64,000 nucleotides of DNA, from NCBI GenBank assembly GCA_949130485.1, contig OX422189.1, positions 4,276,720 through 4,340,719 on the forward strand, written 5' to 3'. Position numbers and translations under genes: made by a program. Of the stretch, positions 23,948-57,178 are shown in pieces (within the stretch, counting starts at the first letter, position 1; each line of letters starts with the position of its first letter). The notes below the pieces were generated by a model, which worked only from the letters and a program-made list of their open reading frames with translations, searched no databases and had not been told where the DNA came from. Origin of the DNA: Agelas oroides (taxonomy: Eukaryota > Porifera > Demospongiae > Agelasida > Agelasidae).

Positions 23948-23963
23948 TAAACAGGCCTGTTTA
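23948..23963. other. Left inversion junction (forward to reverse satellite)
   Basis: The forward array ends ...CACTTAAACAGG and the reverse array begins CCTGTTTATATCCC..., giving the perfect 16-bp palindrome TAAACAGGCCTGTTTA, which no normal unit contains. The switch is centred on the AGGCCT core present in every unit. All satellite from here to 57164 is in reverse orientation. Confidence 0.95.
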
Positions 23964-26900
23964 TATCCCGAGAAAGATCGAGAAAGCAGTTTTCAACTCT
24001 GTGGTGGTCTTGTGAAGCTCGCATAAGCCTGTGTAAGTGCCGGGAAAGATCGAGAAAGCAGTTTTCACCTCTGTGGAGGTCCTGTGAAGCTCGTATAGGC
24101 CTGTTTATGTGCCGGGAACGATCGAGAAAGTGGTTTTAACCTCTGTGGCGGTTCTGTATAGCACGTATAGGCCTGTTTATGTGCCGAGAGAGAAAAGAAA
24201 TCAGTTTTCACCCCTGTGGAAGTCCTATGAAGCTCGTATAGGCGTGTTTATGTGCCGAGAACGATCGAGAAAGTAGCTTTCCCCTCGGTGGAGGGCCTGT
24301 GTAGCTTGTATAGGCCTGTGAATGTGCTTCGAAAGATCGAGAAAGCAGATTTCACCCCTGTGTGGTCCTGTGAAGCTCGTATGAGCATGTTTATGTGCTG
24401 GGAATGATCGACAAAGTAGTTTCGGTCACTGTGGAAGACCTGTGATGCTCGTATAGGCCTGTTTATGTACCTGGAAAGATCGAGAAAGCAGTTTTCACCT
24501 CTGTAGAAGCCCTGTGCAGCATGTATAGGCCTGTTTATGTGCCTTCAAAGATCGAGGAAACAGTTTTCACCCCTGTGGTGGTCTTGTGAAGCTCCCATAA
24601 GCCTGTGTATGTGCATGGAAAGATCGAGAAGGCAGTTTTCACCCCTGTGTGTTCCTGTGAAGCTCGTATATGCCTGTTTATGTGCAGGGAACGATGGAGA
24701 AAGTAGTTTTCACTTCTGTGGAGGTCCTGTGAGGCTCGTATAGGCCTGTTGAAGTGCCGGGAATGGTCGACAAAGCAGTTTTTCTCACTTGGGAAGTCCT
24801 GTGATGATCGTATAGGCCTGTTTATGTGCCTGGAACGATGGAGAAAGCAGTTTACACCTACGTGGAGGCCCTGTGAAGCTTGTATAGGCTTGTTTATGTG
24901 CCTGGAATGATCGAGGAAGCAGTTTACACCCCCGTGGTGGTAGTGTAGAGCTCGTATAACCCTGTTTATGTCCTCAGAACGATCGAGGAAACAGTTTTCA
25001 CCTCTGTGGTGGTCTTGTGATGCTCGCATAAGCCTGTGTATGTACCGGGAAAGATCAAGAAAGCAGTTTTAACCTCTGTGGCGGTTCTGTGATGCACGTA
25101 TAGGCCTGTTTATGTGCCGGGAAAGATCGACAAAGTAGTTTTTGTCACTGTGGAAGTCTTGTGAAGTTCGTATAGCCCTAGTTATGTGCAGGGAATGATG
25201 CAGAAAGTAGCTTTCATCTCTGTGGAGGACCTGTGAAGCTCGTGTAGGCCTGTTTAAGTGCCTGCAAAGATCGAGATAGCAATTTACACCTACGTGGAGG
25301 CCCTGTGAAGCTTGTATAGGCTAGTTTATGTGCCTGGAAAGATCGAGGAAACAGTTTTCACCTACGTGGTGGTACTGTTGAGCTCGTATAGGCCTGTTTA
25401 TGTCCTGGTAACGATCGAGGAAACAGTTTTCACCTCAGTGGTGGTCTTGTAAAGATCGCGTAAGCCTGTGTATGTACCGGGAAAAGTCGAGAAAGCAAAT
25501 TTTCACCACTGTTGAGGTCCAGTGAATCTCGTATAGGCCTGTTTATGTGCCTGGAAAGATCCAGGAAGCAGTTTTCACTTGTGTGGTGGTCCAGTAGAGC
25601 TCGTATAGGCCTGTTTATGTTCCGGGAAAGATCGAGAAAGCAGTTTTCACCACTGTGCAGGTCCTGTGAAACTCGTATAGGACTGTTTATGTGCCGGGAA
25701 CTATCGAGAAAGCAGTTTTTACCTCTGTTGCGGTTCTGTGAAGCACGTATAGGCCTGTTTATGTGCCGTGAAAGAAGAAATCAGTTTTCACCTCTGTTGA
25801 AGTCCTATGAAGCTCGCATAGGCTAGTTTACGTGACAAGAACGATCGAGAAAGCAGTTTTCACGTATGTGGAGGCCCTGTCCAGCTTGTGTAGGCCTGTT
25901 TAGGTGCCTGGAAAGATCGAGGAAGCAGTTTTCACCCCTTTCGGGTTCTTGTGAAGCTCCCATAAGCCTGTGTATGTGCATGGAAAGATCGAGAAAGCAG
26001 TTTTCACCCCTGTGTAGTCCTGTGAAGCTCGTATAGAACTGTTGAAGTGCCGAGAATGGTCGACAAAGTATTTTTTGTCGCTGTGGAAGTCCTGTGATTC
26101 TCGTATAAGCTGTTTATGTGCCTGGAAAGATCGCGAAAGGAGTTTACACCTACGTGGAGGCCCCGTGAAGCTTGTATAGGCTTGTTTATGCGCCTGGAAA
26201 GATCGAGGAAGCAGTTTTCACTTGTGTGGTGGTCCAGTGGAGCTCCTATAGGCCTGTTTATGTTCCGGGAAAGATCGAGAAAGCAGTTTTCACCTCTGTG
26301 CAGGCCCTGTGAAGCTCGTATAGGCCTGTTTATCTGCCGGGAAAGATCGAGAAAACAGTTTTAAACTCTGTTGCGATTCTGTGAACCACGTATAGGCTTG
26401 TTTATGTGCGTTGAAAGAACAAGACATTAGTTTTCACCGCTGTTTAAGTCCTATGAAGCTCGCATAGGCTTGTTTACGTGCCGACAACGATCGAGAAAGC
26501 AGTTTTCACCTATGTGGAGGCCATTTGCAGCTGGTATAGGCCTGTTTATGTGCCTGGAAAGATCGAGGAAGCAGTTTTCAACCCTGTGGTGGTCTTGTGA
26601 AGCTCCCATAAGCCTGTGTATGTGCATGGAAAGATCGAAAGGGCAGTTTTTACCCCTGTGTGGTCCTGTGAAGCTCGTATAGGCCTGTTGAAGTGCCGGG
26701 AAAGGTCGACAAAGTAGTTTTTGTCACTGTGGAATTCCTGTGAAGCTCGTATAGGCCTGTTCATGTGCCGGTAAAGGTCGACAAAGTAGTTTTTGTAACT
26801 GTGGAAGTCCTTTGATGCTCGTATAAGCCTGTTTATGTGCCTGGAAAGATAGAGAAAGGAGTTTACAACTACGTGGAGGCCCTGTGAAGCTTGTATAGGC

Positions 26901-29900
26901 TTGCTTATGCGCCTGGAAAGATCGAGGAAGCAGTTTTCACCTCCGTGGTGGTACTGCAGAGCTCGTATAGGCCTGTTTATGTCTTGGAAACGATCGCGGA
27001 AACAGTTTTCACCTCTGTGGTGGTCTTGTGATGCACGCATAAGCCTGTGTATGTACCGGGAAAGATCGAGAAAGCAGTTTTAGCCTCTGTGGCGGTTCTG
27101 TGAAGCACGTATATGCCAATTTATTTGCCGGGAAAGATCGAGAAAGCTGTTTCCACCTGTGTGGTGGTACTTCAGAGCTCGTATAGGCCTGTTTACGTCG
27201 CGGCAACGATCGAGAAAACAGTTTTTCACCTCCGTTGTAGTACTGTAGAGCTCGTATTATGTCCTGGGAAATATCGAGAAGGCAGTTTTTAACACTGTGG
27301 AGGTCGTTTGGAGCTCGTGCAAGGCTGTTTAAATCCAGGGGAGTGTCAACAAAGCCGTTTTATCCACTGTGGAAGTGCTGTGAAGCTCGTATATGCCTGT
27401 TTATGTGCCGAGAAAGAACGAGAAATCAGTTTTCACCCCTTTGGAAGTCCAGTGAAGCTAGTTTAGACCTGTTTACGTGCCGAGAACGATCGAGAAAGCA
27501 GTTTTCACCACTGTGCAAGTCCTGTTAAGCTCGTATAGACCTGTTTATGTGCCGGGAACGATCGAGAAAGCAGTTTTCACCGCTGTGAAGGTCCTGTGAC
27601 GCTCGTATAGGCCTGTTTATGTGCCGGGAACGATCGAGAAAGAGGTTTTAACCTCTGTGTGGTCCTGTGAAGCTCGTATAGGGCTGTTTATGTGCTGGGA
27701 ATGATCGACAAAGTAGTTTCTGTCACTGTGGAAGACCTGCGATGCCCGTATAGGCCTGTTTATGTGCTTGGAAAGATCGACGAAGCAGTTTTCACCTGTG
27801 TGGTGGTACTGTAGAGCTCGTATAGGCCTGTTTATGTCCCGGAAACGATCGAGAAATCAGTTTTCACCTCTGTGGTGGACTTTTGAAGCTCGTATAAGCC
27901 TGTGTATGTACCGGGAAAGAACGAGAAATCAGTTTTCACCTCTGTTGAAGTCCTGTTAAGCTCGCATAGGCTTGTTTACGTGCCGAGAATGATCGAGAAA
28001 GCAGTTTTCACCTATGTGGAGGCCCTGTGCAGATTGAATAGGCCTGTTTATGTGCCTGGAAAGAGCGAGGAAGCAGTTTTCACCTCTGTGGTGGTCTTGT
28101 GAAGCTCCCATAAGCCTGTGTATGTGAATCGAAAGATGGAGAAGGCAGTTTTCAACTCTGAGGAAGTCCTGTGAAGCTCGTATAGGCCTCTTTATGTGCC
28201 GAGAAAGAACGAGAAATCAGTTTTCACCCCTGTTGAAGTCCTATGAAGCTCGTTTAAGCCTGTTTATGTGCCGAGAACGATCGAGAAAGTAGCTTTCCCC
28301 TCTGTGGTGGCCCTGTGTAGCTTTTACAGGCCTGTGTATGTGCTTGAAAGATCGAGAGATCTGTTTTCACCCCTGTGTGGTCCTGTGAAGCTCGTGTAGG
28401 CCTGTTTATGAGCCGGGAATCATCGAGAAAGTAGTTTTTGTCACTGTGGAAGTCCTGTGATGCTCGTATAGGCCAGTTTATTTGCCTGGAAAGATCGAGG
28501 AAGCAGTCAACACCTACGAGGAGTCCCTGTGACGCTTGCATAGGCTAGTTTATTTGCCGGGAAATATCGAGAAGGCAGTTTTTACCACTGTGGAGGTTGT
28601 TTGGAGCTCGTATATGCCTGTTTATGTGCCTGCAAAGATCGAGGAAGCAGTTTTAACCGGTGTGGTGGTACTGTAGAGCTCGTATAGGCCTGTTTATATC
28701 CCGAGAAAGATCGAGAAGCCAGTTTTCACCTCTGTGGAGGTCCTTTGAAGCTCATATAGGCTTGTTTATGTGCCGTGAACGATCGAGAAAGAGGTTTTAA
28801 CCTCTGTGACGGTTTTGTAAAGCTCGTGTAGGCCTGTTTATGTGCCGCGAAAGAACGAGAAATCAGTTTTCACCCCTGTTGAAGTCCTATGAAGCTCGTA
28901 TAGGCCTGTTTATGTGCCGAGAAAGATTGAAAAACTAGCTTTCCCCTCTGTGGACGCCCTGTGTAGCTTGTATAGGCCTGTGTATATGCCTGGAAAGATA
29001 GATAAAGCAGTTTTCACCCCTGAGTGTCCTGTGAAGCTCGTATAGGCCTGTTGAAGTGCCAGGAAAGGTCGACAAAGTAGTTTTTGTCACTGTGGAAGTC
29101 CTGTGAAGCTCGTATAGGCCTGTTTAAGTGCCTGGAAAGATCGAGGAAGCAGTTTTCACCCGTGTGGTGGTACTGTAGAGCTCGTATAGGCCTGTTTATG
29201 TCCCGGGAACGATCGATAAAACAGTTTTCACCACTGTGGTGGTCTTGTGAAGCTCGTATAAGCCTGTGTATGTAACGGGAAAGATCGAGAAAGCAGTTTC
29301 CTCATCTGTGGAGGTCCTGCGAACATCGTATAGGCCTGTTTAAGTGCTGGGAAAGATCGATAAAGTAGTTTTCGTCACTGTGTAAGTCCTGTGAAGTTCG
29401 TATAGGCCTGTTTATGTGCCGGGAACGATCGAGAAAGCAGTTTTCACCCCTGTTGAAGTCCAATGAAGCTCGTATAGGCCTGTTTATGTGCCGAGAACGA
29501 TCGAGAAATCAGCATTCACCTCTGTGGAGGCCCTGTGAAGCTTGTAAAGGCCTGTTTCTGTGCCTTGAAAGATCGAGGAAGCAGTTTTCACCTCTGTGGT
29601 GGTCTTGTAAAGCTCGCATATGTCTGTCTATGTGCATGGAAAAATCGAGAAAGCAGTTTTCAACCCTGTGTGTGTGAAGCTCGTATAGTCCATTTATGTG
29701 CCGGGAAAGATCGACAAAGTAGTTTTTGTCACTGTTGAAGTCTTGTGAAGTTCGTATAGCCCTGTTTATGTGCAAGGAACTATGGAGAAAGTAGTTTTCA
29801 CCTCTGTGGAGGTCCTGTGAAGCTCGTATAGGCCTGTTTAAGTGGCGATAAAGGTCGACAAAGTGGTTTTTGTCACTGTGTAAGTCCTGTGATGCTGGTA

Positions 29901-32900
29901 TAGGCCTGTTTATGTGCCTGGAAAGATCGAGAAAGCAGTTTACACCTACGTGGAGGCCCTGTGAAGCTGGTATAGGCTTGTTTATGTGCCTGGAAATATC
30001 GAGAAACCAGTTTTCACCTCCGTGGTGGTACTGTAGAGCTCGTATAGAAATGTTTATGTCCTGGGAACGATCGAGGAAACAGTTTTCGCCTCTGTGGTGG
30101 TCTTGTGAAGCTCGCATAAGCCTGTGTATGTACCGGAAAAGATCGAGAGAGCAGTTTTCACCTCTGTGGAGGTCCTGTGAACCTCGTATACGCCTGTTTA
30201 TGTGCCTGGAAAGATCGAGGAAGCAGTTTTCACTTGTGTGGTGGTCCAGTGGAGCTCGTATAGGCTTGTTTATGTTCTTGAAAATATCGAGAAAGCAGTT
30301 TTCACCTCTGTGCAGGTCCTCTGAAGCTCGTATAGGCCTATTTATGTGTCGGGAACATTCGAGAAAGCAGTTTTAACCTATGTTGCGGTTCTGTGAAGCA
30401 CGTATAGGCCTGTTTATGTGCGGTGAAAGAACAAGAAATCAGTTTTCTCCCCTGTTGAAGTCCTATGATGCTCGCAAAGACTATTTTACGTGTAGAGAAC
30501 GATTGAGAAAGCAGTTTTAACCTATGTGGAGGCCCTGTGCAGCATGTAAAGGCCTGTTTATGTGCCTAGAAACATAGAGAAAGCAGTTTTCACCCCTGTG
30601 GCGGCCCTGTGCAGCTTGTATAGGCCTGCTTATGTGCCTTGAAAGTTCAAGGAAGCAGTTTTCACCCCTGTGGTGGTCTTGTGAAGCTCCCATAAGCCTG
30701 TGTATGTGCATGGAAAGATCGAGAAGGCGGGTTTCACCCCTGTGTGGTCCTGTGAAGCTCGTATATGCCTGTTTATGTGCAGGGAACGATGGAGAAAGTA
30801 GTTTTCACCTCTGTGGAGGTGCTGTGAAGCTCGTATAGGCCTGTTTATGTGCCTGAAAAGATCGAGAAAGCAGTTTACACATACGTGGAAGCGCTGTGAA
30901 GCTTGTATAGGCTTGTTTATGTACCTGGAAAGATCGAGGAAGGAGTTTTCACCTCCGTGGTGGTACTGTTGAGCTCGTATAGGCCTGTTTATGTCCATGG
31001 AACGATCGAGGAAATAGTTTTTACCTCTGTGGTGGTCTTGTGAAACTCGCATAAGCCTGTGTATGTACCGGGAAAGATCGAGAAAGCAGTTTTCACCTCT
31101 GTGGAGGTCCTGTGAACCTCGTTTAGGCCTGTTTATGTGCCTGGAAAGATCGAGGAAGCAGTTTTCACTTGTGTGGTGGTCCAGTAGAGCTCGTATAGGC
31201 CTATTTATGTTCGGGGAAAGATCGAGAAAGCAGTTTTCACCGATGTGCAGGTCCTGTGAAGCTTGTATAGGCCTGTTTATGTGCCGGGAACGATCGAGAA
31301 AGCATTTTTAACTTCTGTTGTGGTTCTGTGAAGCACGTATAGGTCGGTTTATGTGCCGGGAACAATCGAGAAAGCAGTTTTAACATCTGTTGTGGTTCTG
31401 TGAAGCACGTATTGGCCTGTTTATGTGCGGTGAAAGAACAAGAAATCAGTTTTCACACCTGTTTTCACACCTGTTGAAGTCCTACGAAGCTCGCATAGGC
31501 TTGTTTACGTGCCGAGAACGACCGAGAAAGCAGTTTTCACCTATGTGGAAGCCCTGGGCAGCTTGTATAGGCCTGTTTATGTGCCTGAAAAGATCGAGAA
31601 AGCAGTTTTATCCTCTGTGGTGGCCCTGTGCAGCTTGTTATAAGCCTGTTTATTTGCCTGAAAAGATCGAGGAAGCAGTTTTCACCCCTGTGGTGGTATT
31701 GTGAAGCTCCCATAAGCCTGTGTATGTGCGTGGAAAGATCGAGAAGGCAGTTTTCTCCCCTGTGTGGTCCTGTGAAGCTCGTATAGGCCTGCTGAAGTGT
31801 CGGAAAGGTCGACAAAGTAGTTTTTGTCACTGTGGAAGTCCTGTGATGCTCATATAGGCCCGTTTATGTGCCTGGAAAGATCGAGAAAGCAGGTTTCACC
31901 TCTGTGCAGGACCTGTGAAGCTCGTATAGGCCTGTTTATGTTCCGGGAACGATCGAGAAAGCAGTTTTAACTTCTGTCGCGGTTCTGTGAAGCACGTATA
32001 GGCCTGTTTATGTGCGGTGAAAGAACAAGAAATCAGTTTTCACCCTGTAGAAGTCCTATGAAGCTCGCATAGGCTTGATTACGTGCCAAGAACGATCGAG
32101 AAAGCAGTTTTCACTTATGTGGAAGCCCAGTGCAACTTGTGTAAGCCTGTTTATGTGCCTGGAAAGATCGCGAAAGCAGTTTTCGCCTATGTGGAGGCCC
32201 TGTGCAGCTTGTATAGGCCTGTTTATGTGCCTGGAAAGATCGAGAAAGGAGTTTACACCTACGTGGAGGCCCTGTGAAGCTTGTATAGGCTAGTTTATGT
32301 GCCTGGAAATATCGAGGAAGCAGTTTTCACCTACGTGGTGGTACTGTTGAGCTCGTATAGGCCTGTTTATGTTCGGGGAAAGATCGAGAGGGCAGTTTTC
32401 ACCTCTGTGCAGGTCCTGTGAAGCTCGTATAGGCCTGTTTATTTGCCGGGAACGATCGAGTAAGCAGTTTTAACCTCTGTCGCGGTTCCGTGAAGCACGT
32501 ATAGGCCTGTTTATGTGCGGGTGAAAAAACAAGAAATCAGTTTTCACCCGTGTTGAAGTCCTATGAAGCTCGCATAGGCTTGATTACGTGCCAAGACCGA
32601 TCGATAAAGCAGTTTTCACCTATGTGGAAGCCCTGTGCAACTTGTGTAAGCCTGTTTATGTGCCTGGAAAGATCGAGAAAGCAGTTTTCGCCTATGTGGA
32701 GGCCCTGCGCAGCTTGTATAGTCCTGTTTATGTGCTTGGAAAGATCGAGGAAGCAGTTTTCAACCCCTGTGGTGGTCTTGTGAAGCTCCCATAAGCCTGT
32801 GTATATGCATGGAAAGATCGAGAAGGCAGTTTTCACCCCTGTGTGGTCCTGTGAAGCTCGTACAGGCCTGTTGAAGTGCCGGGAAAGGTCGACAAAGTAT

Positions 32901-33064
32901 TTTTTGTCACTGTGGAAGTCCTGTGATGCTCATATAGGCCTGTTTATGTGCCTGGAAAGATCGAGAAAGGAGTTTACACTTACGTGGAGGCCCTGTGAAG
33001 CTTGTATAGGCTTGTTTATCTGCCTGGAAAGATCGAGGAAACAGTTTTCACTTGTGTGGTGGTC
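23956..33064 (-). repeat. 72-bp satellite array, reverse orientation (left part of inverted block)
   Basis: Same 72-bp family read on the minus strand (TATAGGCCTGTTTATGTGCC on +). Unit variants here, such as TGGTGGTACTGTAGAGCTCG and TACACCTACGTGGAGGCCCT, match those of the forward array at 57165-64000 in reverse complement. A multi-unit block recurs at about 24535-25029, 26546-27040, 29509-30117 and 30630-31052. No gene is seen. Confidence 0.95.
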
Positions 33065-33405
33065 GTCTTTGCTCGTTCTTTATCCTTGTTATCTTCTGCT
33101 CTGTCCTGTCCTTCGTTCCCTGTTTCTTTTATCTATCGTGTTTCTTCCAACCTTGTGTATACTCCGTGTGGGTTCAACCGTCTCCGTGGACATAACTATA
33201 AGAAGACTTATTATCCTGAAGACCTTTTTTGTGCTAACATAATTAGAGATATTAGAATTAGTTGTGTGTCTAGCAGTGACTTTGAATATGTAATTTCTGT
33301 TATCTCTTCACACTAACTTAATTTACATTTTAATTTAGTTGTTTGTCTCTTACACCTATGTTGGTGTGTTTTCTCAATTGTAATAATAATCATAATAATA
33401 ATAAT
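33065..33405 (+). mobile_element. Probable 5'-truncated LINE 3' end inserted in satellite
   Basis: About 341 bases with no satellite similarity, ending in a microsatellite of AAT units as many CR1/L2/jockey-type retrotransposons do. An open frame (plus strand) ends with TAA at 33314-33316 and contains LRGHNYKK followed by PEDLFCANIIRDI. This faintly resembles the C-terminal tail of LINE reverse transcriptases (an RGH..K block, then F..N..). The satellite on either side resumes with about 13 bases of a unit missing. The identification is tentative; it could be another kind of short insertion. Confidence 0.5.
33380..33405 (+). repeat. (AAT)n microsatellite at the 3' end of the insertion
   Basis: About eight AAT/ATA triplets with one C interruption (TAATAATAATCATAATAATA), directly abutting the resuming satellite (GGCTTGTTTACGTG). 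The position at the insertion edge fits the terminal simple repeat of a target-primed insertion. Confidence 0.9.
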
Positions 33406-33899
33406 AGGCTTGTTTACGTGCCGAGAACGATCGAGAAAGCAGCTTTCACCTCTGTGGAGGACCTGTGAAGCTTGTGTAGGCCTGTGTATGTGCCTGGAAA
33501 GACCGAGAAAGCAGTTATCACATCTCTGCAGGTCCTGTGAAGCTCGTACAGGCCTGTTTATGTGCCTGGAACGATCGAGAAATCAGTTTTCACCTCTATT
33601 GAAGTCCTATGAAGCTCGTATAGGTACCGAGAACGATCATAGAAAGCAGCTTTCACCTATGTGGAGGCGTTGTCAAGCTTGTATAGGCCTGCGTATGTGC
33701 CTGCAAAATTCGTGCAAGCTGTTTTCACCACTTTGTGGTCCTGTGAATCTCGTATAGGCCTGTTTATGCAGTGGGAAAGATCGAAAAATTAGTTTTCGTC
33801 ACTGTGGAAGTCCTGTGAAGCTCGTATAGACCTGTTTATGTCCCGGGAAAGATCGAGAAAGAAGTTTTCGTCACTGTGGAAGTCCTGTGAAGCACGTAT

Positions 33900-35335
33900 G
33901 GGCCGGTTTAAGTACCGGGAAAGAACGAGAAATCAGTTTTCACCCCTGTTGAAGTCCAATGAAGCTTATATAGGCCTGTTTATGTGCCGAGAACGATCGA
34001 GAAAGCAGCTTTCACCACTGTGGAAGCCCTGTGAAGCATGTATAGGCGTGTTTCAGTGCCTTGAAAAATCAAGGAAGCAGTTTTCACCTCTGTGGTGGTC
34101 TTGTGAGGCTCGCATAAGCCTGTGTATGTGCCTGGAAAGATCAAGAAAGCAGTTTTCACTCCTGTGTAGTCCTATGAAGCTCGCATACGCCTGTTTATGT
34201 GCCTGGAAAGATTGACAAAGTAGTTTCTGTCACTGTGGAAGTCTTGTGAAGTTCCTATAGGCCTGTTTATGTGCAGGGAACGATGGAGAAAGCAGTTTTC
34301 ACCACTGGAGTTCCTATGAAGCTCGTATAAGCCTGTTTAAGTGCCGGGAAAGATCGACAAAGTAGTTTTCGTCACTGTGGAAGTCCTGTGAAGCTCGTAT
34401 ACGCCTGTTTATGTCCCGGGAAAGATCGAAAAAGCAGTTTTCACCTCTGTGGAGGTCCTGTGAAGCTCGTATAGGCCTGTTTAAGTGCCGGGAAAGAGCG
34501 ACAAAGTAGTTTTCGTCACTGTGGAAGTCCTGTGAAGCTCGTATAGGCCTGTTGATGTGCCGGGAAAGATCGACAAAGTAGTTTTCGTCACTGTGGAAAT
34601 CCTGTGAAGCTATATAGTTTAGACCTGTTTGTATCCCGGGAAAGATCGAGAAGGCAGTTTTCACCTCTGTGGCGGTTCTGTGAAGCACGTATAGGCCTGT
34701 TTATGTCCCGGGAAAGATCGAGAAAACAGTTTTCACCTCTGTGGTGGTCTTGTGAAGCTCGCATAAGCCAGTGTATATGAAGGGTAAGATCGAGAAAGCA
34801 GTTTTCACCACTGTGGAGGTCCTGTGAAGCTCGTATAGTCCTGTTTAAGTGCCGGGAATGATCGAGAAAGAAGTTTTCGTCACTGTGGAAGTCCTGTGAA
34901 GCACGTATAGGCCTGTTTAAGTGCCGGGAAAGAACGAGAAATCAGTTTTCACCCCTGTTGAAGTCCAATGAAGCTTATATAGGCCTGTTTATGTGCCGAG
35001 AACGATCGAGAAAGCAGCTTTCACCTCCTGTGAAGCATGTAGAGGCGTGTTTCAGTGCCTTGAAAAATCGAGGAACCAGTTTTCACCTCTGTGGTGGTCT
35101 TGTGAAGCTCGCATAAGCCTGTGTATGTGCCTGGAAAGATCAAGAAAGCAGTTTTCACTCCTGTGCAGTCCTATGGAGCTCGCATACGGCCGTTTATGTG
35201 CCTGGAAAGATCGACAAAGTAGTTTCTGTCACTGTGGAAGTCTTGTGAAGATCGTATAGGCCTGTTTATGTGCAGGGAACGATGGAGAAAGCAGTTTTCA
35301 CCACTGAAGTTTCTCTGAAGCTCGTATAGACCTGT
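33900..35335 (-). repeat. About 1.0-kb higher-order repeat, with a third copy at about 37200-37640
   Basis: The marker GTTGAAGTCCAATGAAGCTT occurs at 33948, 34958 and 37241 (spacings 1010 and 2283). Each time it is followed by the same unusual units: a GGCGTGTTTCAGTGCCTTG unit, a unit with GGAAAGATCAAGAAAGCAG, and a unit with ACGATGGAGAAAGCAG. The run of shared variants spans about 400 bases in each copy. Confidence 0.82.
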
Positions 35336-35390
35336 TTAAGTGCCGGGAAAGATCGACAAAGTAGTTTTCGTCACTGTGGAAGTCCTGTGA

Positions 35391-35640
35391 TGCTTACGCC
35401 TGTTTATGTACCGGGAAAGATCGAGAAAGCAGTTTTCACCTCTGTGGTGGTCTTGTGAAGCTCGCATAAGCCTGTGTATGCGCCGGGAAAGATCGACAAA
35501 GTAGTTTTCGTCACTGTGGAAGTCCTGTGATGCTTACGCCTGTTTATGTACCGGGAAAGATCGAGAAAGCAGTTTTCACCTCTGTGGTGGTCTTGTGAAG
35601 CTCGCATAAGCCTGTGTATGCGCCGGGAAAGATCGAGAAA
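35391..35640 (-). repeat. 140-bp tandem duplication of a truncated dimer
   Basis: GTGATGCTTACGCCTGTTTA occurs at 35387 and 35527, 140 bases apart. The sequence between is essentially identical in both copies, including a short unit where part of AGCTCGTATAGG has been lost. Shared loss of the same bases shows the two copies arose by duplication after the deletion. Confidence 0.85.
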
Positions 35641-36121
35641 GTAGTTTTTGTCACTGAGGAAGTCCTGTGAAGCTCGTAAAAGCCTGTTTAAGTGCCGAGA
35701 ACGATCGAGACAGCAGTTTTCACCTATGTGTAGGCCCTGTGAAGCTTGTATAGGCCTGTTTATCTGCCTGGAAAGATCGAGAAAGCAGTTTTCACCCCTG
35801 TGCAAGTCCTGTGAACATCGTATAGGCCTGTTTATGTGCCGGGAAAGATCGAGGAAGCAGTTTTGACATTTGTGGTGGTCGAGTAGAGCACGTATAGGCC
35901 TGTTTAGGTCCCGGGAAAGATCTAGAAAGCAGTTATCACCTCTGTGGTGGTCTTGTGAAGCTCGCATAAGCCTGTGTATGTGCTAGGAAAGATCGAGAAA
36001 GCAGTTTTTGTCGCTGTGGAAGTCCTGTGAAGTTCGTATAGGCCTGTTTATGTGCAGGGAACGATCGAGAAAGCAGTTTTAATCTCTGTGGAGGTCTTGT
36101 GAAGTTGGTATAGGCCTGTTT

Positions 36122-45046: not shown

Positions 45047-45064
45047 AGTTAGTTAGTTAGTTAA
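45047..45064 (-). repeat. 3' terminal tetranucleotide repeat of the CR1-like element
   Basis: On + it reads AGTTAGTTAGTTAGTTAA, i.e. (TAAC)n at the 3' end of the minus-strand element. CR1/L2-type retrotransposons commonly end in a short tandem repeat instead of poly(A), so this marks the 3' boundary. Confidence 0.85.
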
Positions 45065-45087
45065 ATTTTCATTTTTAACAGGAAAAG

Positions 45088-45118
45088 TCCCTTCAGCCTG
45101 AAGGCTGGTCCACCAGGG
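45088..45118 (-). other. Twin hairpin in the 3' UTR of the CR1-like element
   Basis: Two adjacent inverted repeats: CCTTCAG (45090-45096) with CTGAAGG (45098-45104), and CTGGT (45105-45109) with ACCAG (45112-45116). They lie about 25 bases before the terminal repeat. Conserved 3' stem-loops near the tail are recognised by the reverse transcriptase in related LINEs; that role here is inferred. Confidence 0.7.
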
Positions 45119-45226
45119 AGTCCTGCATAACAAGTACAAACAACAACAATTTAGACTATAATAATATTACAAGTTATAAAATATATATATCTACTATAAA
45201 TCCTGTATAATTAGTCATTGTTCTAA

Positions 45227-47968: not shown

Positions 47969-48589
47969 CTACAACTCATCAAACTTAGAAACAAGACTCC
48001 TAATGTTCAAGTGACAAAATAGCACATTCCCACTGCTCTCAAACAACTTTGGCAACTGTTGTAAGTCATCACCACCCTCAGCATTGATCAGCCCATCTCC
48101 ACTACTGATATTCGTAAGACTGGCATCAACAAACGGTAATTCACAAGCAAGACATCCAGGACAATACCACAGCTCATTTTCATTCACACTAATCTTCTCA
48201 TACTCATCAATAGAAACACCACAACAGCTAGCATGACTCCAGTTTTCACACCTCGTGCACTCTATTCCTCGCTGATTACAACGTACTGGTTGCTTACACA
48301 CAGTGCAGGGATACCTCACTGGGCCTGGATTCTGCTCGACATCCACCGCAAGCAGTAGTAGCCAGAAGACCAGGTTTGGCGCCTTCCGACGGCAACGACA
48401 AGTGAACGGACACAGGTGTGGATTTTTCCTCCAGACACAGACCACAGCTGAAGAGCTAACAACCTGAACATACATCTTCCTTGGAGCTAACAGTAGCTTA
48501 CAATTGTCCTCCGTACAACACCTTGGTGCTGTTACAGCTCGAATCACAACAAAAAGCCATAGGCACAAGAGCGAAAATCGGAGCGCCAT
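47969..48589 (-). CDS. CR1-like polyprotein, N-terminal part: signal-like leader, 2A and PHD finger, ends in amber stop
   Basis: 206 residues from the first ATG (48587-48589) after an in-frame TAA (48632-48634). Residues 1-21 look like a signal peptide (MALRFSLLCLWLFVV, then AVTA). Cysteines are frequent at 24-67. A second hydrophobic run LVFWLLLLAV (73-82) leads into DVEQNPGP (83-90), a canonical 2A ribosome-skipping signal. A PHD-type C4HC3 finger follows: C95, C98, C111, C114, H119, C122, C143, C146. The frame then enters the endonuclease (LFCHLNIRSLVSKFDEL) and stops at TAG (47969-47971); the same frame resumes at once with VLIEGCKGLVLGISETW. The break is thus one nonsense change in an otherwise open 1,119-residue protein. 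The 2A would release an 89-residue leader from the PHD-endonuclease-RT part. Confidence 0.88.
   Translation of the reverse strand: MALRFSLLCLWLFVVIRAVTAPRCCTEDNCKLLLAPRKMYVQVVSSSAVVCVWRKNPHLCPFTCRCRRKAPNLVFWLLLLAVDVEQNPGPVRYPCTVCKQPVRCNQRGIECTRCENWSHASCCGVSIDEYEKISVNENELWYCPGCLACELPFVDASLTNISSGDGLINAEGGDDLQQLPKLFESSGNVLFCHLNIRSLVSKFDEL
48320..48343 (-). other. 2A-like ribosome-skipping motif (DVEQNPGP)
   Basis: The eight codons read DVEQNPGP and match the D-V/I-E-x-N-P-G-P consensus; a hydrophobic stretch (FWLLLLAV) sits immediately before, as in active 2As. Skipping would occur between Gly89 and Pro90. 2A motifs near the N-terminus of CR1-like elements have been described in sea urchin, sponge and other invertebrates. 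Activity of this copy is inferred from the intact consensus. Confidence 0.9.
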
Positions 48590-48648
48590 AATAGTCACGT
48601 AAGAATGTATATAACTAGCGTAAAGATGCCGTTACTAGGGTAATTATG

Positions 48649-49123
48649 CCGTTACTAAGAGAAGCACGCTCCCATTTAAAGCTCCCCGACCGGGTCTCAC
48701 ACACAAACTAGTATAGTACTCACCGCGAAAAAGTCGCCACAGCACAGACCCGAGTGTCCAGCAAAAGAGTCTTCAGTACAGAAACGCCTACCGCCGAACA
48801 AGCCTCCCAGACGCACGGAACGACAGCGAGTCTGCGAGAGACGGTATGTTGGTTCGCCCATCCCCCTAGTTAGTGTTATGATAACTACACCCATTTAGCC
48901 CCACCCCCAATTTGCTTAGTAATTAGAATATTCTTAGCTGTGTGAATGCCAACCGAGAGCTGGGCTCCTCACTCAAAGCCAGCCTTAGGCGGGGAGTGGT
49001 CCCGCCCTTTCTGTAGTAGGCCACGGATCGGGAGTTCAAAGGGACCGAAACCCGTGGTCATGCGAGGACCGGAAAGGGTACTCCCCTGAAGACCAGTATT
49101 TTTTTGAGCATATAATAGTAACT
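48649..49123. other. Unassigned sequence right of the CR1-like element
   Basis: About 475 bases with no satellite similarity and no convincing gene. Short open frames lack recognisable motifs. Seen here: a second GCCGTTACTA repeat (48629-48638 and 48649-48658), a splice-donor-like GCGGTGAGTA on the minus strand (48717-48726) and an acceptor-like TGCTTCTCTTAG about 60 bases further on. It may be the 5' UTR/promoter of the CR1-like element or part of the older host insertion; I cannot tell which. Confidence 0.5.
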
Positions 49124-49336
49124 AACCGCCCCATCCATTTGAGCCATAAATGCCCCACCCATTTTAAGTCATAAATGCCACACCCATTAAAGTCATAAAT
49201 GCCCCACCCATTTTAAGTCATAAATGCCACACCCATTAAAGTCATAAATGCCCCACCCATTTCAGCCATAAATGCCCCACCCATTTAAGCCATAAAAATG
49301 CCCCATTCATTTAAGCCATAAATGCCCCATCCCCAA
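49124..49336 (+). repeat. 24-25-bp minisatellite (CATAAATGCCCCACCCATT)
   Basis: About eight or nine copies of a unit built on CATAAATGCCCCACCCATTT, with alternating variants (ATGCCACACCCATTAAAGT versus ATGCCCCACCCATTTTAAGT). The alternation gives a partial 48-49-bp dimer in the middle (49150-49250). A/T- and C-rich, with no coding potential. Confidence 0.9.
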
Positions 49337-49427
49337 CTGCCTTTATGTTTTAACTCCACACTTTATGTGTGAAATTTTGAACATCGATGTGCCTGAGGTG
49401 TTGGTGTTCCCCCACTCAACACACAAC
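49337..49427. other. Right edge of the composite insertion
   Basis: About 90 bases between the minisatellite and the resumed satellite. It contains a small inverted repeat (CACACTTTATGTGTG, near 49358-49372) and ends CACTCAACACACAAC. Nothing recognisable is seen in it. Confidence 0.5.
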
Positions 49428-50111
49428 TTCACCCCTGTGGAGGCCCTGTGAAGCTTGTATAGGCCTGTTTCTGTGCCGGGAAAGATCGAGAAAGCAGTTT
49501 TCACCTCTGTGGAGGTCCTGTGAAGCTTGTATAGGCCTGTTTAAGTGCCGGGAATGATCGACAAAGTTGTTCTCGTCACTGAGGAAGTCCTGTGATGCTC
49601 GGACAGGCTTGTTTATGTGCCGGGAATGATCGGGAAAGCAGTTTTCACCTCTGTCGTGGTTCTGTGAAGCACGTAAAAGCCTGTTTATATGCCGGGAAGG
49701 AACGAGAAATCAGTTTTCACCCTTGTTGAAGTCCAATGAAGCTCGTATAGGCCTGTTTATGTGCCGAGAACGATCGAGAAAGCAGCTTTCACCTCTGTGG
49801 AGGCCCTGTGAATCTTGTTTAGGCTTGTTTCTGTGCCTTGAAAGAGCTAGGAAGCAGTTTTCACTTCTGTGGTTGTCTTGTGAAGCTCGCATAAGCCTGT
49901 GTATGTGCCTGGAAAGATCGAGAAAGCAGTTTTCAACCTTGTGTGGTCCTGTGAAGCTAGTATAGGCCTGTTTATGTGCCGGGAAAGATCGACAAAGCAG
50001 GTTTCGTCACTGTGGAAGTCCTGTGAATCTCGTATAGGCCTGTTTATGTCCCGGTAAAGATCGAGAAAGCAGTTTTAACCTCTGTGGCAGTTCTGTGAAG
50101 CACGTATAGGC
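49428..50111 (-). repeat. 72-bp satellite array, reverse orientation (after composite insertion)
   Basis: Ordinary reverse-oriented units with the common variants (TATAGGCCTGTTTATGTGCC). The 49720-49960 stretch shares the GCCTTGAAAG...GCTAGGAAGC variant run with 55960-56110. It grades at about 50112 into the diverged subfamily. Confidence 0.94.
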
Positions 50112-52640
50112 CTGTTTAAGAGCCAGGGAAGATCGAGAAAGCAGTTTTCACCGCTGTGGAGGCCGTGAGAGCATAGTGCAAGCATGTTTGTTTTCGGGAA
50201 ATCCTTGTAAAGCGGTTTTAACCTCCGAAGAGATGCTGAGAAGCACGTGTAGGCCTGTTTAAGTGGTAGGGAAGATCGAGAAAAATTTTTTCTCCACTGT
50301 GGTGGTCCTATTAGGCTCGTGCAAGCCTGTTTATGTGCGGGAAAGACCTGATAACGCCGTTTTGACCGCCGAGGAGGTGCTGTGAAGCACGTGCAGGCCT
50401 GTTTAAGTGCCAGGGATGACTGAGAAGGAAGTTTTCACCGCTGTCGAGGTGCTGTGAGGCTCGTGTAAGCCTGTTTATGTGAGGAGATTACCTGAAAAAG
50501 CCGTTTTAACCAACGAGGATGTTCTCTGACGCAGGTGAATGCTTATATAAGTGCTAGGGAAGATCGAGAAACCACTGTGGAGGTCCTGTGAGGCTGGTGC
50601 AAGCCTGCTTATGTGTGGGAAAGACCTGATAACTGCGTTTTACCCTCCGAGGAGGTGCTGTGAAGCACGTGTAGGCCTGCTTAAGTGTCAGGGATAATCG
50701 AGAAAGAAGTTTTCACTACTATGGAAGTCCTGTGTGGCTTGTGCCAAGCCTGTTTATGTGGGGGAAAGAGCTGGTCACGCCGTTTTATCCACCGAGGAGC
50801 TGTGAAGCACGTGTATGTCCCAGAGAAGATCGAGAGAGCAGATTTCACGGCTGTGAAGGCCATGTGAGGTTGGTGCAAGCCTGTTTATATACGGGAACGA
50901 CCTGATAACTCCGTTTTAACCTCGTAGGAGGTGCTGTTAAGCACGTGGAGGCCTGTCTAAATTTCAGAGATGATCCGCTGTGGAGGCCGTGAGAGCTTAG
51001 TGCAAGCATGTTTGTGTGCGGAAATCCTTGTAATTTAACCTCCGAGGAGATGCTGTGAAGCGCGTGTAAGCCTGTTTAAGTGCCAGGGAAGACTGAGAAG
51101 GAAGTTTTCACCACTGTCGAGGTCCTGTGAGGCTCGTGCAAGCCTGTTTATGTGAGCAAATTACCTGACAAAACCGTTTTTACAACCGAGGAGGTGCTAT
51201 GAAGGAGGTGCAGGCCTGTTTTAGTGCTAGGGAAGATCGACAAAGCAGTTTTCACCACTGTGGAGGCCCGTGAGAGCTTAGTGCGAGCATGTTTGTGTGC
51301 GGGAAATCCTTGCAAAGCGGTTTTAACATTCGAGGAGATGCTGCGAAGCAGTGTAAGCCTGTTTAAGTGCAAGGGAAGACTGAGAAGGAAGTTCTCACCA
51401 CTGTCGAGGTCCTGTGAGGCTCGTGCAAGCCTGTTTATGCGAGGAAATTACCTGAGAAAGCAGTTTTAACCACCCACCTCGGAGTAGGCCTGTTTATGTG
51501 CCAGGGAAGATCAAGAAAGCATTTTTCTCCACTGTGGATGTCCTGTGCGACTCGTGCAAGCCTGCTTATGTGTGAGAAAGACCTGATAACTACGTTTTAC
51601 CCTCGGAGGAGGTGCTGTGAAGTACGTGTAGGCCTGCTTAAGTGGCAGGCAAGATCGAGAAAGCTGTTTTCACTACCATGGAAGTCCTGTGAGGCTTGTG
51701 CAAGCCTGTTTATGTTGGGGAAAGACCTGGTCACGTTTTGTCCACCGAGAAGGAGCTGTGGAGCACGTGTAGGCCTGTTTATGTGCCAGAGAAGATCGAG
51801 AGAGCAGATTTTACCGCTCAGAAGGCCCTCTGAGGTTGGTGCAAGCCTGTTTATGTGCGGGAAAGACCTGATAACGCCGTTTTAACGTCCGAGGTGGTGC
51901 TGTGAAGCACGTGCAGGCCTGTTTAAGTGCCAGGGAAGACTGAGAAAGAAGTTTTCACCGATGTCGAGGTCCTGTGAGGCTTCTGCAAGCCTGTTTATGT
52001 GGGGGAAAGACCTGGTCACGCCGTTTTATCCACCGAGAAGGAGCTGTGAAGTACGTGTAGGCCTGTTTATATGCCTGAGAAGATCGAGAGAGCAGATTTC
52101 ACCGCTGTGAAGGCCCTGTGAGGTTGGTGCAAGCCGGATTATATGCGGGAACGACCTGATAACGCCGTTTTCACCTCCTAGGAAGTGCTGTGAAGCACGT
52201 GCAGGTTTTTTTAATTTCCTGAAATGATCGAGAAAACAGTTTTAACCGCTGTGGAGGCCGAGAGGGCTTAGTGCAAGCATGTTTGTGTGCGGGAAATCCG
52301 TTTAAAGCGGTTTTAACCTCCGAGGAGATGCTGTGAAGCACGTGTAGGCCAGTTTGAGTGCCAGGGAAGATCGAGAAAGAAGTTTACACTACTATGGAAG
52401 TCCTGTGAGGCTTGTGCAAGCCTGTTTATGTGGGGGAAAGACCTGGTCACGCCGTTTTATCCACCGAGAAGTAGCTGTGAAGCACGTGTAGGCCTGTTTA
52501 TGTGCCAGAGAAGATCGAGAGCAGATTTCACCGCTGTGATGGCCCTGTGAGGTTGGTGAAAGCCTGTTTATTTGCGGGAACGACCTGATAACGCGGTTTT
52601 AACCTCCTAGGAGGTGCTGTGAAGCACGTGGAGGCCTGTT
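50112..52640 (-). repeat. Diverged dimeric satellite subfamily island (about 144-bp period)
   Basis: Unit length and general plan match the main satellite, but two strongly different types alternate. One has GGGAAAGACCTGATAACGCC and CCGAGGAGGTGCTGTGAAGC; the other has GCCAGGGAAGATCGAGAAAG and a GAGGCTCGTGCAAGCCTG junction. AAGCCTG junctions at 50323 and 50467 are 144 apart. Sub-variants recur within the island (GGAAATCCTTGTAAAGCGG; GAAAGACCTGGTCACG). Ordinary units meet it on both sides (GGCCTGTTTAAGAGCCAGGG at 50108, GAGGCCTGTTTATGTGCCAG near 52631). No gene is seen. Confidence 0.9.
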
Positions 52641-55600
52641 TATGTGCCAGGAAAGAGCGATAAATCAGTTTTGACCCCTGTTAAAGTCCAATGAAGCTCG
52701 TATAGGCCCGTTTATGTGCCGAGAACGATCGAGAAAGCAGCTTTCACCTCTGTGGAAGTCTTGTGAAGCTCGTATAGGCCTTTTTATGTGCTGGGAACGA
52801 TAGAGATAGCAGTTTTAACCTCTTTGGCGGTTCTGTGAAGCACGTATAGGCCTGTTTATGTGCCAGGAAAGAGCGATAAATCAGTTTTCACCCCTGTTGA
52901 AGTCCAATGAAGCTCGTATAGGCCTCTTTATGTGCCTAGAACGATCGAAAAAGCAGCTTTCACCTCTGTGGAGGCCCTGTGAAGTTTGTATAGGCCTGTT
53001 ACTGTGCCTTGAATGATCGAGGAAGCAGTTTTCACCTCTGTGGTAGTCTTGTGAAGCTCGCATAAGCCGGTGAATGAGCCTGGAAAGATCGAGAAAGCAG
53101 TTTTCAACCCTATGTTGTCCTGTGAAGCTCGTATAGGCCTGTTTATGTGCCGGGAAAGATCGACAAAGTAGTTTCTGTCACTGAGGAAGTCCGGTAATGC
53201 TCGTATAGGCCTGTTTAAGTGCAGGGAACGATCGAGAAAGCAGTTTTAACCTCTTTGGCGGTGCTGTGAAGCACGTATAGGCCTGTTTATGTGCATGGAA
53301 AGATCGAGGAAGCAGTTTTCTCCTGTGTGGTGGTACTGTAGTTCTCAATTAGGCTTGTTTATGTCCCGGGAACGATCTAGAAATCAGTTTTCACCTCTGC
53401 GGTGGTCTTGTGAAGCTCGCATAAGCCTATGTATGTGCCTGGAAAGATCGAGAAAGCAGTTTTCACCTCTGTGCAGATCCTGTGATGCTCATTCAGGCCT
53501 GTTTATGTGCCGGGAACGTTCGAGAAAGCAGTTTTAACCTCTTTGGTGGTTCTATGAAGCACGTATAAGCCTGTTTATGCGCAGGGAACGATGGAGAAAG
53601 CAGTCTTCACCTCTATGCTGGTCTTATGAAGCTCGCATAAGCCTGTGTATGTGCCGGGAAAGATCGAGAAAGCAGTTTTCACCTCTGTGCAGTCCTGTGA
53701 AGCTCGTATAGGCCTGTTTAAGTGCCGGGAAAGATCCACAAAGTAGTTTTCGTCACTGTGGATGTCTTGTGAAGCTCGTATAGGACTGTTTATGTGCCAG
53801 GAAAGATCGACAAAGTAGTTTTCGTCATTGTGGAAGTGCTGTGAAGCTCGTATAGGCCAGTTTATGTCCCGAGAAAGATCGAGAAGGCAGTTTACAACAC
53901 TGTGGTGGTCTTGTTAAGCTCGCATAAGCCTGCGTATGTGCCTGGAAAGATCGAGAAAGCAGGTTTCACCTCTGTGCAGGTCCTGTGAAGCTCGTACTGG
54001 CCGGTTTTTGTGCCGGGAACGATCGAGAAAGCAGTTTTCACCTCTGTGGAGGTCCTGTGAAGCTCGTATAGGCCTGTTTGTATGCCGGGATCGATCGAGA
54101 AAACAGTTTTCACCTCTGCGGTGGTCTTGTGAAGCTCGAATACGCCTGTGTTTGTGCCGGGAAAGATCGAGAAAGTAGTTTTCCTCACTGTGGAAGTCCT
54201 GAGAAGCTCGTATAGGACTGTTTAAGTGCCGAGAAAGATCGACAAAGTGGTCTTCGTCACTGTGGAAGTCCTGTCGTATAGGCCTGTTTATGTGCCGGGA
54301 AAGATCGATAAAGTAGTTTTCGTCACTGTGGAAGTCCTTTGAAGCTCGTATAGGCCTGTTTATGTCCCGGGAAAGATCGAGAAAGCAGTTTTCACTCCTG
54401 TGCAGGTCCTGTGAAGCTCGTACAGGCCTGTTTATGTGCCGGGAAGGATTGAGAAAGCAGTTTTCACCTCTGTGGAGGTCCTGTGAAGCTCGTATAGTCC
54501 TGTTTATGTGCCGGGAATGATCGAGAAAGCAGTTTTTACCTCTGTGGTGGTCTTGTGAAGCTCGTAATGGCCTGTCTATGTGCAGAGAGCGATGGAGAAT
54601 GCAGTTTACACCTCTGTGGAGGTCCTGTGATGCTCGTATAGGCTTGTTTAAGTGCCGGGAATGATCGACAAAGTAATTATCGTCACTGGGGAAGTCCTGT
54701 GAGGCTCGTATAGGCCTCTTTAAGTGCCTGGAAAGATCGGGGAAGCAGTTTTGACCTGTGTGGTGCTCGTATAGGCTAGTTTATGTCCTGGAAACGATCG
54801 AGAAAACAGTTTTTCACCTCTGCAGTGGTCTTGTGAAACTCGTATAAGCCTGTGTATGTGCCGGGAAAGATCGAGAAAGCAGTTTTCACCTCTGTGCAGG
54901 TCCTGTGAAGCTCGTACAGGTCTGTTTATGCGCCGGGAACGATCGTGAAAGCAGTTTTCACCTCTGCGGAGGTCCTGTGAAGCTCGTATATGCCTGTTTA
55001 TGTGCCGGGAACGATCGAGAAAGCAGTTTTAACCTCTGTGGGGGCCCCGTGAAGCTTGTATAGGCCTGTTTCAGTGCCTTGAAAGATCGTGAAAGCAGTT
55101 TTCACCCCTGTGTGTTCCTGTGAAGCTCGCATGGACCTGTTTATGTGCCTGGAAAGATCGACAAAGTAGTTTCTGTCACTGTGGAAGTCTTGTGAAGTTC
55201 CTATAGGCCTGTTTATGTGAAGGGAGCGATGGACAAAGCAGTTTTCACCTCTGTGGAGGTCCTGTGAAGCTCGTATAGGCCTGTTTACGTGCCGGGAAAG
55301 AGCGACAAAGTAGTTTTCGTCACTGTGGAAGTCCTGTGATGCTCGTATACGGCTATTTTTGTCCCGGGAATGATCGAAAAAGCAGTTTACACCTCTGTGG
55401 TGGTCTTGTGAAGCTCGCATAAGCCTGTGTATGTGCAGGGAAAGATCGAGAAAGCAATTTTCACCACTGTGCAGGTCCTGTGAAGCTGGTATATATCTGT
55501 TTAAGTAAGTTCGACAAAGTGGTTTTTGTCGCTGTGGAAATCCTGTGAAGCGCCGGAAAGAACGAGAAATCAGTTTTCACCCGTGTTTAAGTACTATGAA

Positions 55601-57164
55601 GCTCATATAGGGCTGTTTATGTGCCGAGAAAGATCGAGAAAGCAGCTTCCACCTCTGTGGAGGCCCCGTGAAGCTTGTATAGGCCTGTTTCTGTGCCTTG
55701 AAAGATCGAGGAAGCAGTTTTCACCTACGTGGTGGACTTGTGAAGCTCGCATAAGCCTGAGTATGGGCCGGGAAAGATCGAGAAAGCAGTTTTCACCTCT
55801 GTGCAGGTCCTGTGAAGCTCGTATAGGCCTGTTTAAGTGCCGGGAAAGATCGACAAAGTAGTTTTCGTCACTGGGGAAGCCCAATGAATCTCGTATAGGC
55901 CTGTTTATGTGCCGAGAACGATCGAGAAATCAGCTTTCACCTCTGTGGAAGCTCTGTGAAGCTTGTAAAGGCCTGTTTCTGTGCCTTGAAGGATCTAGGA
56001 AGCAGTTTTCACCTCTGTGGTTGTCTTGTGAAGCTTGCATAAGCCTGTGTATGTGCCTGGACAGATCGAGAAAGCAGTTTTCAACCTTGTGTGGTCCTGT
56101 GAAGCTCGTATAGGCCTGTTTATGTGCTGGGAAAGATCGACAAAGTAGTTTCTGCCACTGTGGAAGCCTTGTGAAGTTCGTATTGGCCTGTTTATGTGCA
56201 GGGAACGATGGAGAAAGTAGATTTCACCGCTGTGGAGGTCCTGTGAAGCTTGTATAGGCCAGTTTAAGTGACGGGAAAGGTCGACAAAGTAGTTTTTGTC
56301 ACTGTGGAAGTCTGGTAATGCTTTAAGTGCAGGGAACGATCGAGAAAGCAGTTTTAACCGCTGTGGCGGTTTTGTGAAGCACGTATAGGCATGTTTATGT
56401 CCCGGGAACGATCGAGAAAACAGTTTTCACCTCTGTGGTTGTCTTGTGAAGCTCGCATAAGCCTGTGTATGTGCCTGGACAGATCGAGAAAGCAGTTTTC
56501 AACCTTGTGTGGTCCTGTGAAGCTTGTGTAGGCCTGTTTATGTGCTGGGAAAGATTGACAAAGTAGTTTCTGCCACTGTGGAAGCCTTGTGAAGTTCGTA
56601 TTGGCCTGTTTATGTGCAGGGAACGATGGAGGAAGTAGATTTCACCGCTGTGGAGGTCCTGTGAAGCTCGTATAGGCCAGTTTAAGTGACGGGAAAGGTC
56701 GACAAAGTAGTTTTTGTCACTGTGGAAGTCTGGTAATGCTTTAAGTGCAGGGAACGATTGAGAAAGCAGTTTTAACCGCTGTGGCGGTTTTGTGAAGCAC
56801 GTATAGGCTTGTTTATGTCCCGGGAACGATCGAGAAAACAGTTTTCACCACTGCGGTGGTCTTGTGAAGGTCGCATAAGCCTGTGTATGTGCGGGGAAAG
56901 ATCGAGAATGCAGTTTACACCTCTGTGGAGGTCCTGTGAAGCTCGTATAGGACTGTTTATGTGCCGGGATAGAACGAGAGATCAGTTTTCACCCCTGTTG
57001 AAGTCCTGTGAAGCTCGTATAGGCCTGTTTATGTCTCGGGAAAGATCGAGAAAGCAGCTTTCACCCTTGTGTGGTCCTGTGAAGCTCGTATAGTCCTGTT
57101 TAAGTGCAGGGAAAGATGGACAAAGTAGTTTTCGTCAGTGTGGAAGTCCTGTTAAGCTCGTATA
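52641..57164 (-). repeat. 72-bp satellite array, reverse orientation (right end of inverted block)
   Basis: Ordinary reverse-oriented units. Blocks here resemble the forward array at 3-23 kb in reverse complement. For example, the units at 54998-55420 match the block at 9092-9514, and GGCCCCGTGAAGCTTGTATA near 55660 matches the TATACAAGCTTCACGGGGCC units. The array ends at the second orientation switch. No gene is seen. Confidence 0.95.
56020..56857 (-). repeat. 418-bp tandem duplication
   Basis: The rare variant CTGGACAGATCGAG occurs at 56057 and 56475, 418 apart. Following units match almost base for base, including ACAAAGTAGTTTCTGCCACT, GTTCGTATTGGCCTG, a shortened unit reading GGTAATGCTTTAAGTGCAGG, and GACGGGAAAGGTCGAC. 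The shared truncated unit explains why the period is not a multiple of 72. Confidence 0.88.
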
Positions 57165-57178
57165 AGCCTATACGAGCT
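57155..57178. other. Right inversion junction (reverse to forward satellite)
   Basis: The reverse array ends ...AAGCTCGTATAAG and the forward array starts CCTATACGAGCTCTAC..., forming a 10-bp inverted repeat (AGCTCGTATA at 57155-57164, TATACGAGCT at 57169-57178) around AGCC. The switch falls at the same place in the unit (A-G-G/CCT) as the left junction at 23955/23956. Confidence 0.95.

Follow-up and report, generated by a model that had tools for sequence, protein, structure and literature searches.

In the sponge Agelas oroides (assembly GCA_949130485.1, 259 Mb in 141 contigs), an array of 72-bp satellite units on contig OX422189.1 (C7) changes orientation at two points that enclose a single block, raising the question of whether this block was turned around once, as a whole, or acquired its two boundaries in some other way. 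We analysed the window, a stretch of 64,000 nt at C7:4276720-4340719, together with 200 kb of flanking sequence (264 kb in total, with 0 N bases); positions below are those of the window, and negative values or values above 64000 extend its coordinates into the flanks. The block, 33.2 kb long and lying at 23956-57166, was very probably flipped once inside the satellite array, as an initial annotation had proposed in joining the two switch points by one inversion, a proposal that the reversal tests described below support. The switches and their phase, as well as the former adjacency of the sequences that now lie to the right of each switch, can be seen directly in the assembly.

Orientation switches in the 72-bp array

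Mapping of the 72-bp units with nhmmer yielded 2213 units in the 264 kb, 775 of them inside the window (379 in + and 396 in - orientation). The array spans ~200 kb, with unit matches from ~-95.8 kb to +107 kb, and is broken up by non-satellite inserts. Thirteen changes of unit orientation were listed, from which we discarded three that reflected isolated single units outside arrays, retaining ten switches at ~-19.0, -4.67, -3.47, -1.89, -0.27, 0.64, 0.80, 23.956, 57.166 and 95.07 kb (the left side of the first consists of one weak - unit only). Four of these switch points, at about 644, 800, 23956 and 57166, fall inside the window, so that the 33-kb flip is not, as had been implied, its sole inversion; the first two bound a piece of ~150 bp at 641-800.

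The monomer map places the left junction between the last + unit, ending at 23960, and the first - unit, starting at 23947, and the right junction between - units reaching 57172 and + units starting at 57195. At the base level, the left junction reads TAAACAGG|CCTGTTTA (also written out as CACTTAAACAGG|CCTGTTTATATCCC), with the switch at 23955/23956 and an ambiguity within the AGGCCT at 23953-23958, and the right junction reads CGTATAAG|CCTATACG (also written out as CTCGTATAAG|CCTATACGAGCTC), with the switch at 57166/57167; on the contig, the two joins are C7:4300674/4300675 and C7:4333885/4333886. Both switches thus sit at AGG|CCT, exactly as first described, and the 16-mers spanning the two junctions each occur once in the 264 kb.

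The remaining switches include smaller inverted pieces. At the left join of the piece at 641-800, 14 bp are duplicated in direct orientation (638-666), which suggests a multi-step template switch. The segments bounded by -4.67/-3.47 and -1.89/-0.27 kb (-4666 to -274, C7:4272053-4276445) appear, by inspection, to be diverged copies of a single inverted piece, given that the sequences flanking the switches match at both ends; over their whole length the two share only 2.6-3.5% of 30-mers, and they look like an inverted segment that was later duplicated in tandem. Arrays elsewhere in the genome offer no comparison for flips, because a 10-kb stretch on contig C10 runs all in one orientation (137 units) and a 16-kb stretch on contig C2 holds just 9 units.

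Continuity across the junctions before and after reversal

We lettered the satellite to the left of the inverted block A, that at the left and right ends of the block B and C, and that to its right D (Table 1), and measured local variant sharing as the ratio of observed to expected (O/E) shared rare 24-mers within 6 kb across a point. Within blocks, this sharing decays with distance, from an O/E of ~4 up to 8 kb to 2.1 at 8-12 kb, 1.4 at 12-16 kb and less than 0.7 past 16 kb. The present junctions scored 0.38 (A|B) and 0.51 (C|D), each lower than any of 49 control points (minimum 0.81, median 2.46), and reversal of the block raised the values to 1.76 (A|C) and 3.96 (B|D). Plotted against the de-inverted distance, sharing between B and D was 2.8, 5.6, 2.9, 3.8, 1.7 and 0.7 at 0-2, 2-4, 4-8, 8-12, 12-16 and 16-24 kb, respectively, resembling the baseline decay, as compared with just 0.2-0.6 at a present distance of 0-16 kb; sharing between A and B by present distance was 0-0.5. 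The satellite at 24-33 kb had been said to match the right-hand side in reverse complement, and indeed 15.7% of its 30-mers recur in 57.2-72.5 kb; the neighbouring stretch at 16.6-24.0 kb holds 3.5% of them, 33.4-44.8 kb holds 4.5%, and no other block exceeds 5.7%.

These results were examined under seven combinations of k, multiplicity cap and range, with 400 far pairs as reference. The restored similarity on the right side was matched by only 0.3-1.0% of the far pairs across the seven settings, and in five of the settings both present junctions fell under the control minimum. Reversal of the block, the check suggested at the outset, therefore restores higher-order continuity, and the evidence is strong at the right side and suggestive at the left. 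Among the nine switch points tested, only 23956 and 57166 have an O/E below 1: sharing persists at seven of the other eight switches (O/E 1.37-3.32, values that are not independent of one another, several points lying less than 6 kb apart; the -19.0 kb switch has no value), the pattern that short or local flips would give. Raw identity over long blocks proved non-discriminating (most long in-phase satellite alignments listed were at ~77-81%), and stricter scoring and rare-word sharing were used in its place. When all 45 pairs of switch points were reversed in turn, 23956-57166 ranked first (3.62, baseline 3.47), and among 815 grid reversals its score was equalled only by its own rounded image, 24000-57210.

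A 33-kb piece misoriented by the assembler or scaffolder would regain continuity on reversal just as a true inversion does, so that the continuity tests, variant sharing and the paralog alignment described below alike, do not by themselves exclude misassembly. We consider such an artefact unlikely, since the 264 kb contain no N and both joins are base-continuous through just 4-6 shared bp. An overlap of 4-6 bp is scant for an assembler to join on, and a gap-filling step could still produce it. The two arms at each junction, compared at five lengths from 72 to 2016 bp, are 0.72-0.83 identical, around the mean of random unit pairs (0.765; 99th percentile, 0.90), which also rules out an artefact in which a fold-back read supplied the block as a copy.

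The former order is retained in copies elsewhere in the array. We denote the sequence to the right of the left junction B-start, and that to the right of the right junction D-start. Reversed B-start followed by D-start, which reconstitutes the right junction as it would be without the inversion, aligns to 57930-59407, bearing out the claim that an intact order exists near 58600-58770. Identity per unit in this alignment is 93 and 97% on the left of the join and 97, 100, 94, 93, 96, 100, 90 and 88% on its right, falling to 72-79% farther left; the 8 units around the join at 58.5-59.2 kb are 93-100% identical each, as compared with 76.5% for random unit pairs. A second paralog site, at 64.9 kb, shows 90 and 96% on the left and 89, 96, 97, 88, 97 and 97% on the right. 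Among 2192 in-phase places, the three best paralogs of D-start were found, in that order, at 58674, 63268 and 64921, and the same sites ranked 5th, 1234th and 10th for the B-start flank (B-start itself being 1st); two of the three best D-start paralogs therefore retain the old order.

A single word carries the same information. The 18-mer CTTTCTCGGGATATAAAC has 4 exact copies in the 264 kb, one at the left breakpoint and the others at 58654, 64901 and 28692, the last lying inside the inverted block, and the 144 bases past these three copies match D-start at 98.6, 92.4 and 85.4%, respectively, against a background in which at least 90% is reached at 10 and at least 85% at 110 of the 2192 places (exact CTTTCTCGGGATATAAAC copies taken). 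The variants at the joins had been described as rare; as exact words this holds for ACCACCACAGAGTTGAAAAC (6 copies), CTTTCTCGGGATATAAAC and CAGGTTAAAACTGCTTCCTC (3 copies), which rise to 70, 15 and 49 copies, respectively, when one mismatch is allowed, and fails for ACGAGCTCTACAGT, with 39 exact copies.

Several observations weigh against a single reciprocal flip. The B-side of the paralog match spans two units, about 144 bp only, and for the left pre-inversion junction (A followed by reversed C) we found no intact paralog among the in-phase places. The restored similarity at the left side was matched by 4-10% of the far pairs across the seven settings, and sharing between A and B over the first five bands of de-inverted distance is irregular (0 from 1 pair, 3.7 from 5 pairs, 1.1, 1.95 and 0.5). 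With the multiplicity cap at 40, A|B (0.70) stayed below the control minimum of 0.78 and C|D (0.82) rose above it; with the cap at 4, A|B (0.36) was just below the minimum of 0.37 and C|D (0.54) above it. The exact-extension measure of microhomology gives a 1-base gap, with 0 shared bases, at the right junction. Finally, on an unrestricted 1-kb grid scored by observed minus expected sharing, this reversal comes 36th of 19950 (gain 986), and the best 8 form two other clusters.

Some of these points would fit a pair of independent template switches, or D1 sequence duplicated in inverted orientation at 24-33 kb, in place of one reciprocal inversion: the strong kinship to D1 is limited to B1, with B2 and much of C mostly self-related, the left join has no such paralog, and elsewhere in the locus blocks L5 and D2 stand in an inverted relation for which no clean flip was shown. 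A duplication would, however, have left D-start its old left neighbour, but sequence of this type is found precisely at the other switch point; moreover, A2 and reversed C show a modest restored similarity (1.76, versus 0.38 for the present A|B). We therefore regard both alternatives as most improbable, and one inversion as the better account of both junctions.

The two leading clusters of the unrestricted grid comprise reversals within a block at -68 to -57 kb that was recently duplicated and runs in one orientation (best gain, 1738) and reversals whose ends fall close to -38 to -32 kb on one side and +77 to +86 kb on the other (best gain, 1668, at -33 to +85). With the best of each applied, the reversal that gains most as a third step runs from -5000 to 28000 in moved coordinates and corresponds to 23956-57166, since each end equals -33000+85000 minus a breakpoint. 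Because reversal of -33 to +85 kb is one of the two strongest gains in continuity, the 33-kb inversion may lie within a larger inversion or inverted copy (about -33 to +85 kb). Inverted near-identity ~112 kb apart is seen between -37575 to -33596 (C7:4239144-4243123) and 78843-82897 (C7:4355562-4359616), comprising 2.8 kb at 97.3% and 1.4 kb at 95%.

Microhomology at the breakpoints

At the left junction, sequence of + type extends to 23958 and sequence of - type begins at 23953, giving a 6-bp overlap, AGGCCT, by exact extension. This measure is defeated by single variants (its output was 2 bp at -4.67 kb, a gap for six junctions and nothing for another two), and overlaps at the right junction and at the other switches were therefore read by inspection; at the right junction, CTCGTATAAGCCT (38 copies) and AGGCCTATACGAG (481 copies in the 264 kb) overlap by the 4 bp GCCT. 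In 200,000 simulated random inversions in the array, at least 4 bp were shared in 1.6% and at least 6 bp in 0.15%.

AGGCCT, its own reverse complement, is the longest inverted word of the unit consensus and is present in 993 of 2005 full-length units, about half; it is also the commonest inverted 6-mer, accounting for 22.5% of inverted 6-mer pairs in the array, and a join guided by microhomology would therefore often land on it. Being self-complementary and the commonest such word, AGGCCT calls for no special fold-back and no site-specific enzyme, and ordinary inverted microhomology of 4-6 bp would be enough to place the break.

The initial annotation had suggested that the AGGCCT palindrome promotes fold-back recombination, a suggestion that found no support here. 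The arms at neither junction are copies of each other, as a fold-back inverted duplication would produce, their identity being that of random units; fold-back is accordingly disfavoured, B-start seeming to have been moved away from D-start rather than copied. A preferred break or fold-back site with recurrent inversions, which would be compatible with a real inversion, is in keeping with the position of both ends of the 33-kb block at AGGCCT and with two further switches (-3.47 and -0.27 kb) whose - side, by inspection, ends in AGGC or a variant of it. We nevertheless hold it to be very unlikely: by inspection, none of the other eight switches (0/8) has both sides at AGGCCT, the word is seldom used for all its abundance, and its use is already predicted by ordinary microhomology. 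As a general rule, an AGGCCT hotspot was rejected on the same count.

In the sequence of events that we propose, the satellite here would originally have run all in one orientation; a 33.2-kb segment would then have been excised between AGG and CCT in two units far apart and reinserted the other way round, presumably in a single event, the joins being resolved through the 4-6 bp that both units share in the inverted sense. The route may have been two double-strand breaks or a template switch at a replication fork, two possibilities that the evidence does not separate. The local duplications behind the copies at 57.2, 58.7 and 64.9 kb are probably older than the inversion, because those at 58.7 and 64.9 kb still have the uninverted arrangement. 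More broadly, the short self-complementary words of the satellite might determine at which point of the unit inversions break, and through this the dyad arrangement of the array, an idea that we consider doubtful. The largest clean flip uses AGGCCT, and the piece at 641-800 switches (by inspection) at TCAC/GTGA, which belongs to one of the two next-longest inverted word pairs in the consensus, although its left join also bears the 14-bp duplication.

Features of the locus and comparison with known arrays

The inverted block and its surroundings are summarized in Table 1.

Table 1. Coordinates of the inverted block, its breakpoints and the adjoining satellite in the window.
Feature	Position	Strand	Basis or remark
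Separate small inverted piece	641..800	-	orientation map
A2, 72-bp satellite left of the inversion	16626..23955	+	monomer map
Left breakpoint AGGCCT, 6 bp common to both sides	23953..23958	.	
Inverted block, 33.2 kb	23956..57166	-	orientation map and continuity tests
B1, satellite; closest kin outside B1 is D1 (57.2-72.5 kb, +)	23957..33055	-	
Rare word CTTTCTCGGGATATAAAC at left breakpoint	23959..23976	-	other 3 exact copies precede 57167-like sequence
Non-satellite insertion of ~340 bp, (AAT)n at end	33065..33406	+	by inspection
B2, satellite, kin mostly within B2	33404..44772	-	
Non-LTR retrotransposon (endonuclease, reverse transcriptase, PHD finger) and flanking non-satellite DNA in the inverted block	44773..49430	-	
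C, satellite, right end of the inverted block	49431..57166	-	
Right breakpoint AGCCT (AAG|CCT)	57165..57169	.	
D1, satellite right of the inversion; continues to 72452	57167..64000	+	monomer map
Intact paralog of the right junction before inversion (23956-24100 in reverse complement, then 57167 onward)	58530..59217	+	

The non-LTR (long terminal repeat) retrotransposon inside the block comprises reading frames at 47969-48631 (-) and 45227-47968 (-), separated by one stop and matching a PHD finger, an endonuclease and a reverse transcriptase in Pfam; it has a signal-peptide-like start and the sequence DVEQNPGP, which we take to be a 2A-like motif. A 24-bp minisatellite (GCCCCACCCATTTAAGCCATAAAT) lies at the edge of the retrotransposon block (49128-49329). 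To the left of the inversion, the satellite holds a second element with a reverse transcriptase (13276-16620, -), with a cysteine-rich N-terminus and a T-rich end (poly-A on the other strand). In the flanks, a 1.75-kb insert at 85387-87142 (C7:4362106-4363861) has inverted ends (CACTGCAAAAA...TTTTTGCAGTG) and is DNA-transposon-like, and the satellite at -69953 to -55253 (C7:4206766-4221466) carries recent large duplications, with copies 4.8, 5.2 and 10.0 kb apart at 98-99% identity. A search of the window against Rfam at gathering thresholds gave no match.

Inversion within a satellite array is a known kind of event. In primate alpha-satellite arrays, inversions have been found from unit orientation, in one array over 3.2 Mb and with validation by ultra-long reads (PMC11062924). 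The block described here is likewise a reversed run of units within a longer array; unlike the centromeric, read-validated primate cases in that account, it measures 33 kb, is built of a 72-bp unit and is known from the assembly alone. Tribolium satellites show macro-dyad symmetries, in which long subarrays alternate in orientation at defined switch points, an alternation that the sponge array resembles (PMC13081366). In Tribolium, a few conserved switch sites recur in thousands of near-identical copies, whereas the 16-mers at our two junctions occur once each in the 264 kb, with no recurrent switch sequence of this type; two other switches in the locus seem, by inspection, to have been duplicated once locally. 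Fold-back inverted duplications involve 2-8 bp of inverted microhomology and duplicate the sequence beside a spacer (PMC3907307); the short inverted microhomology at the join is common to both, in contrast to the sequence itself, which here appears to have been moved rather than copied. For the 72-bp unit, a narrow literature search returned no published match, and the unit may still have been published.

The higher-order copies of the sponge array thus preserve part of the order that preceded the flip, and one ancestral join can be read at the base level from a single assembly, with no outgroup. Comparison of variant sharing before and after reversal is applicable to other satellite arrays, where it would reveal flips of whole blocks and set them apart from local switches in orientation.

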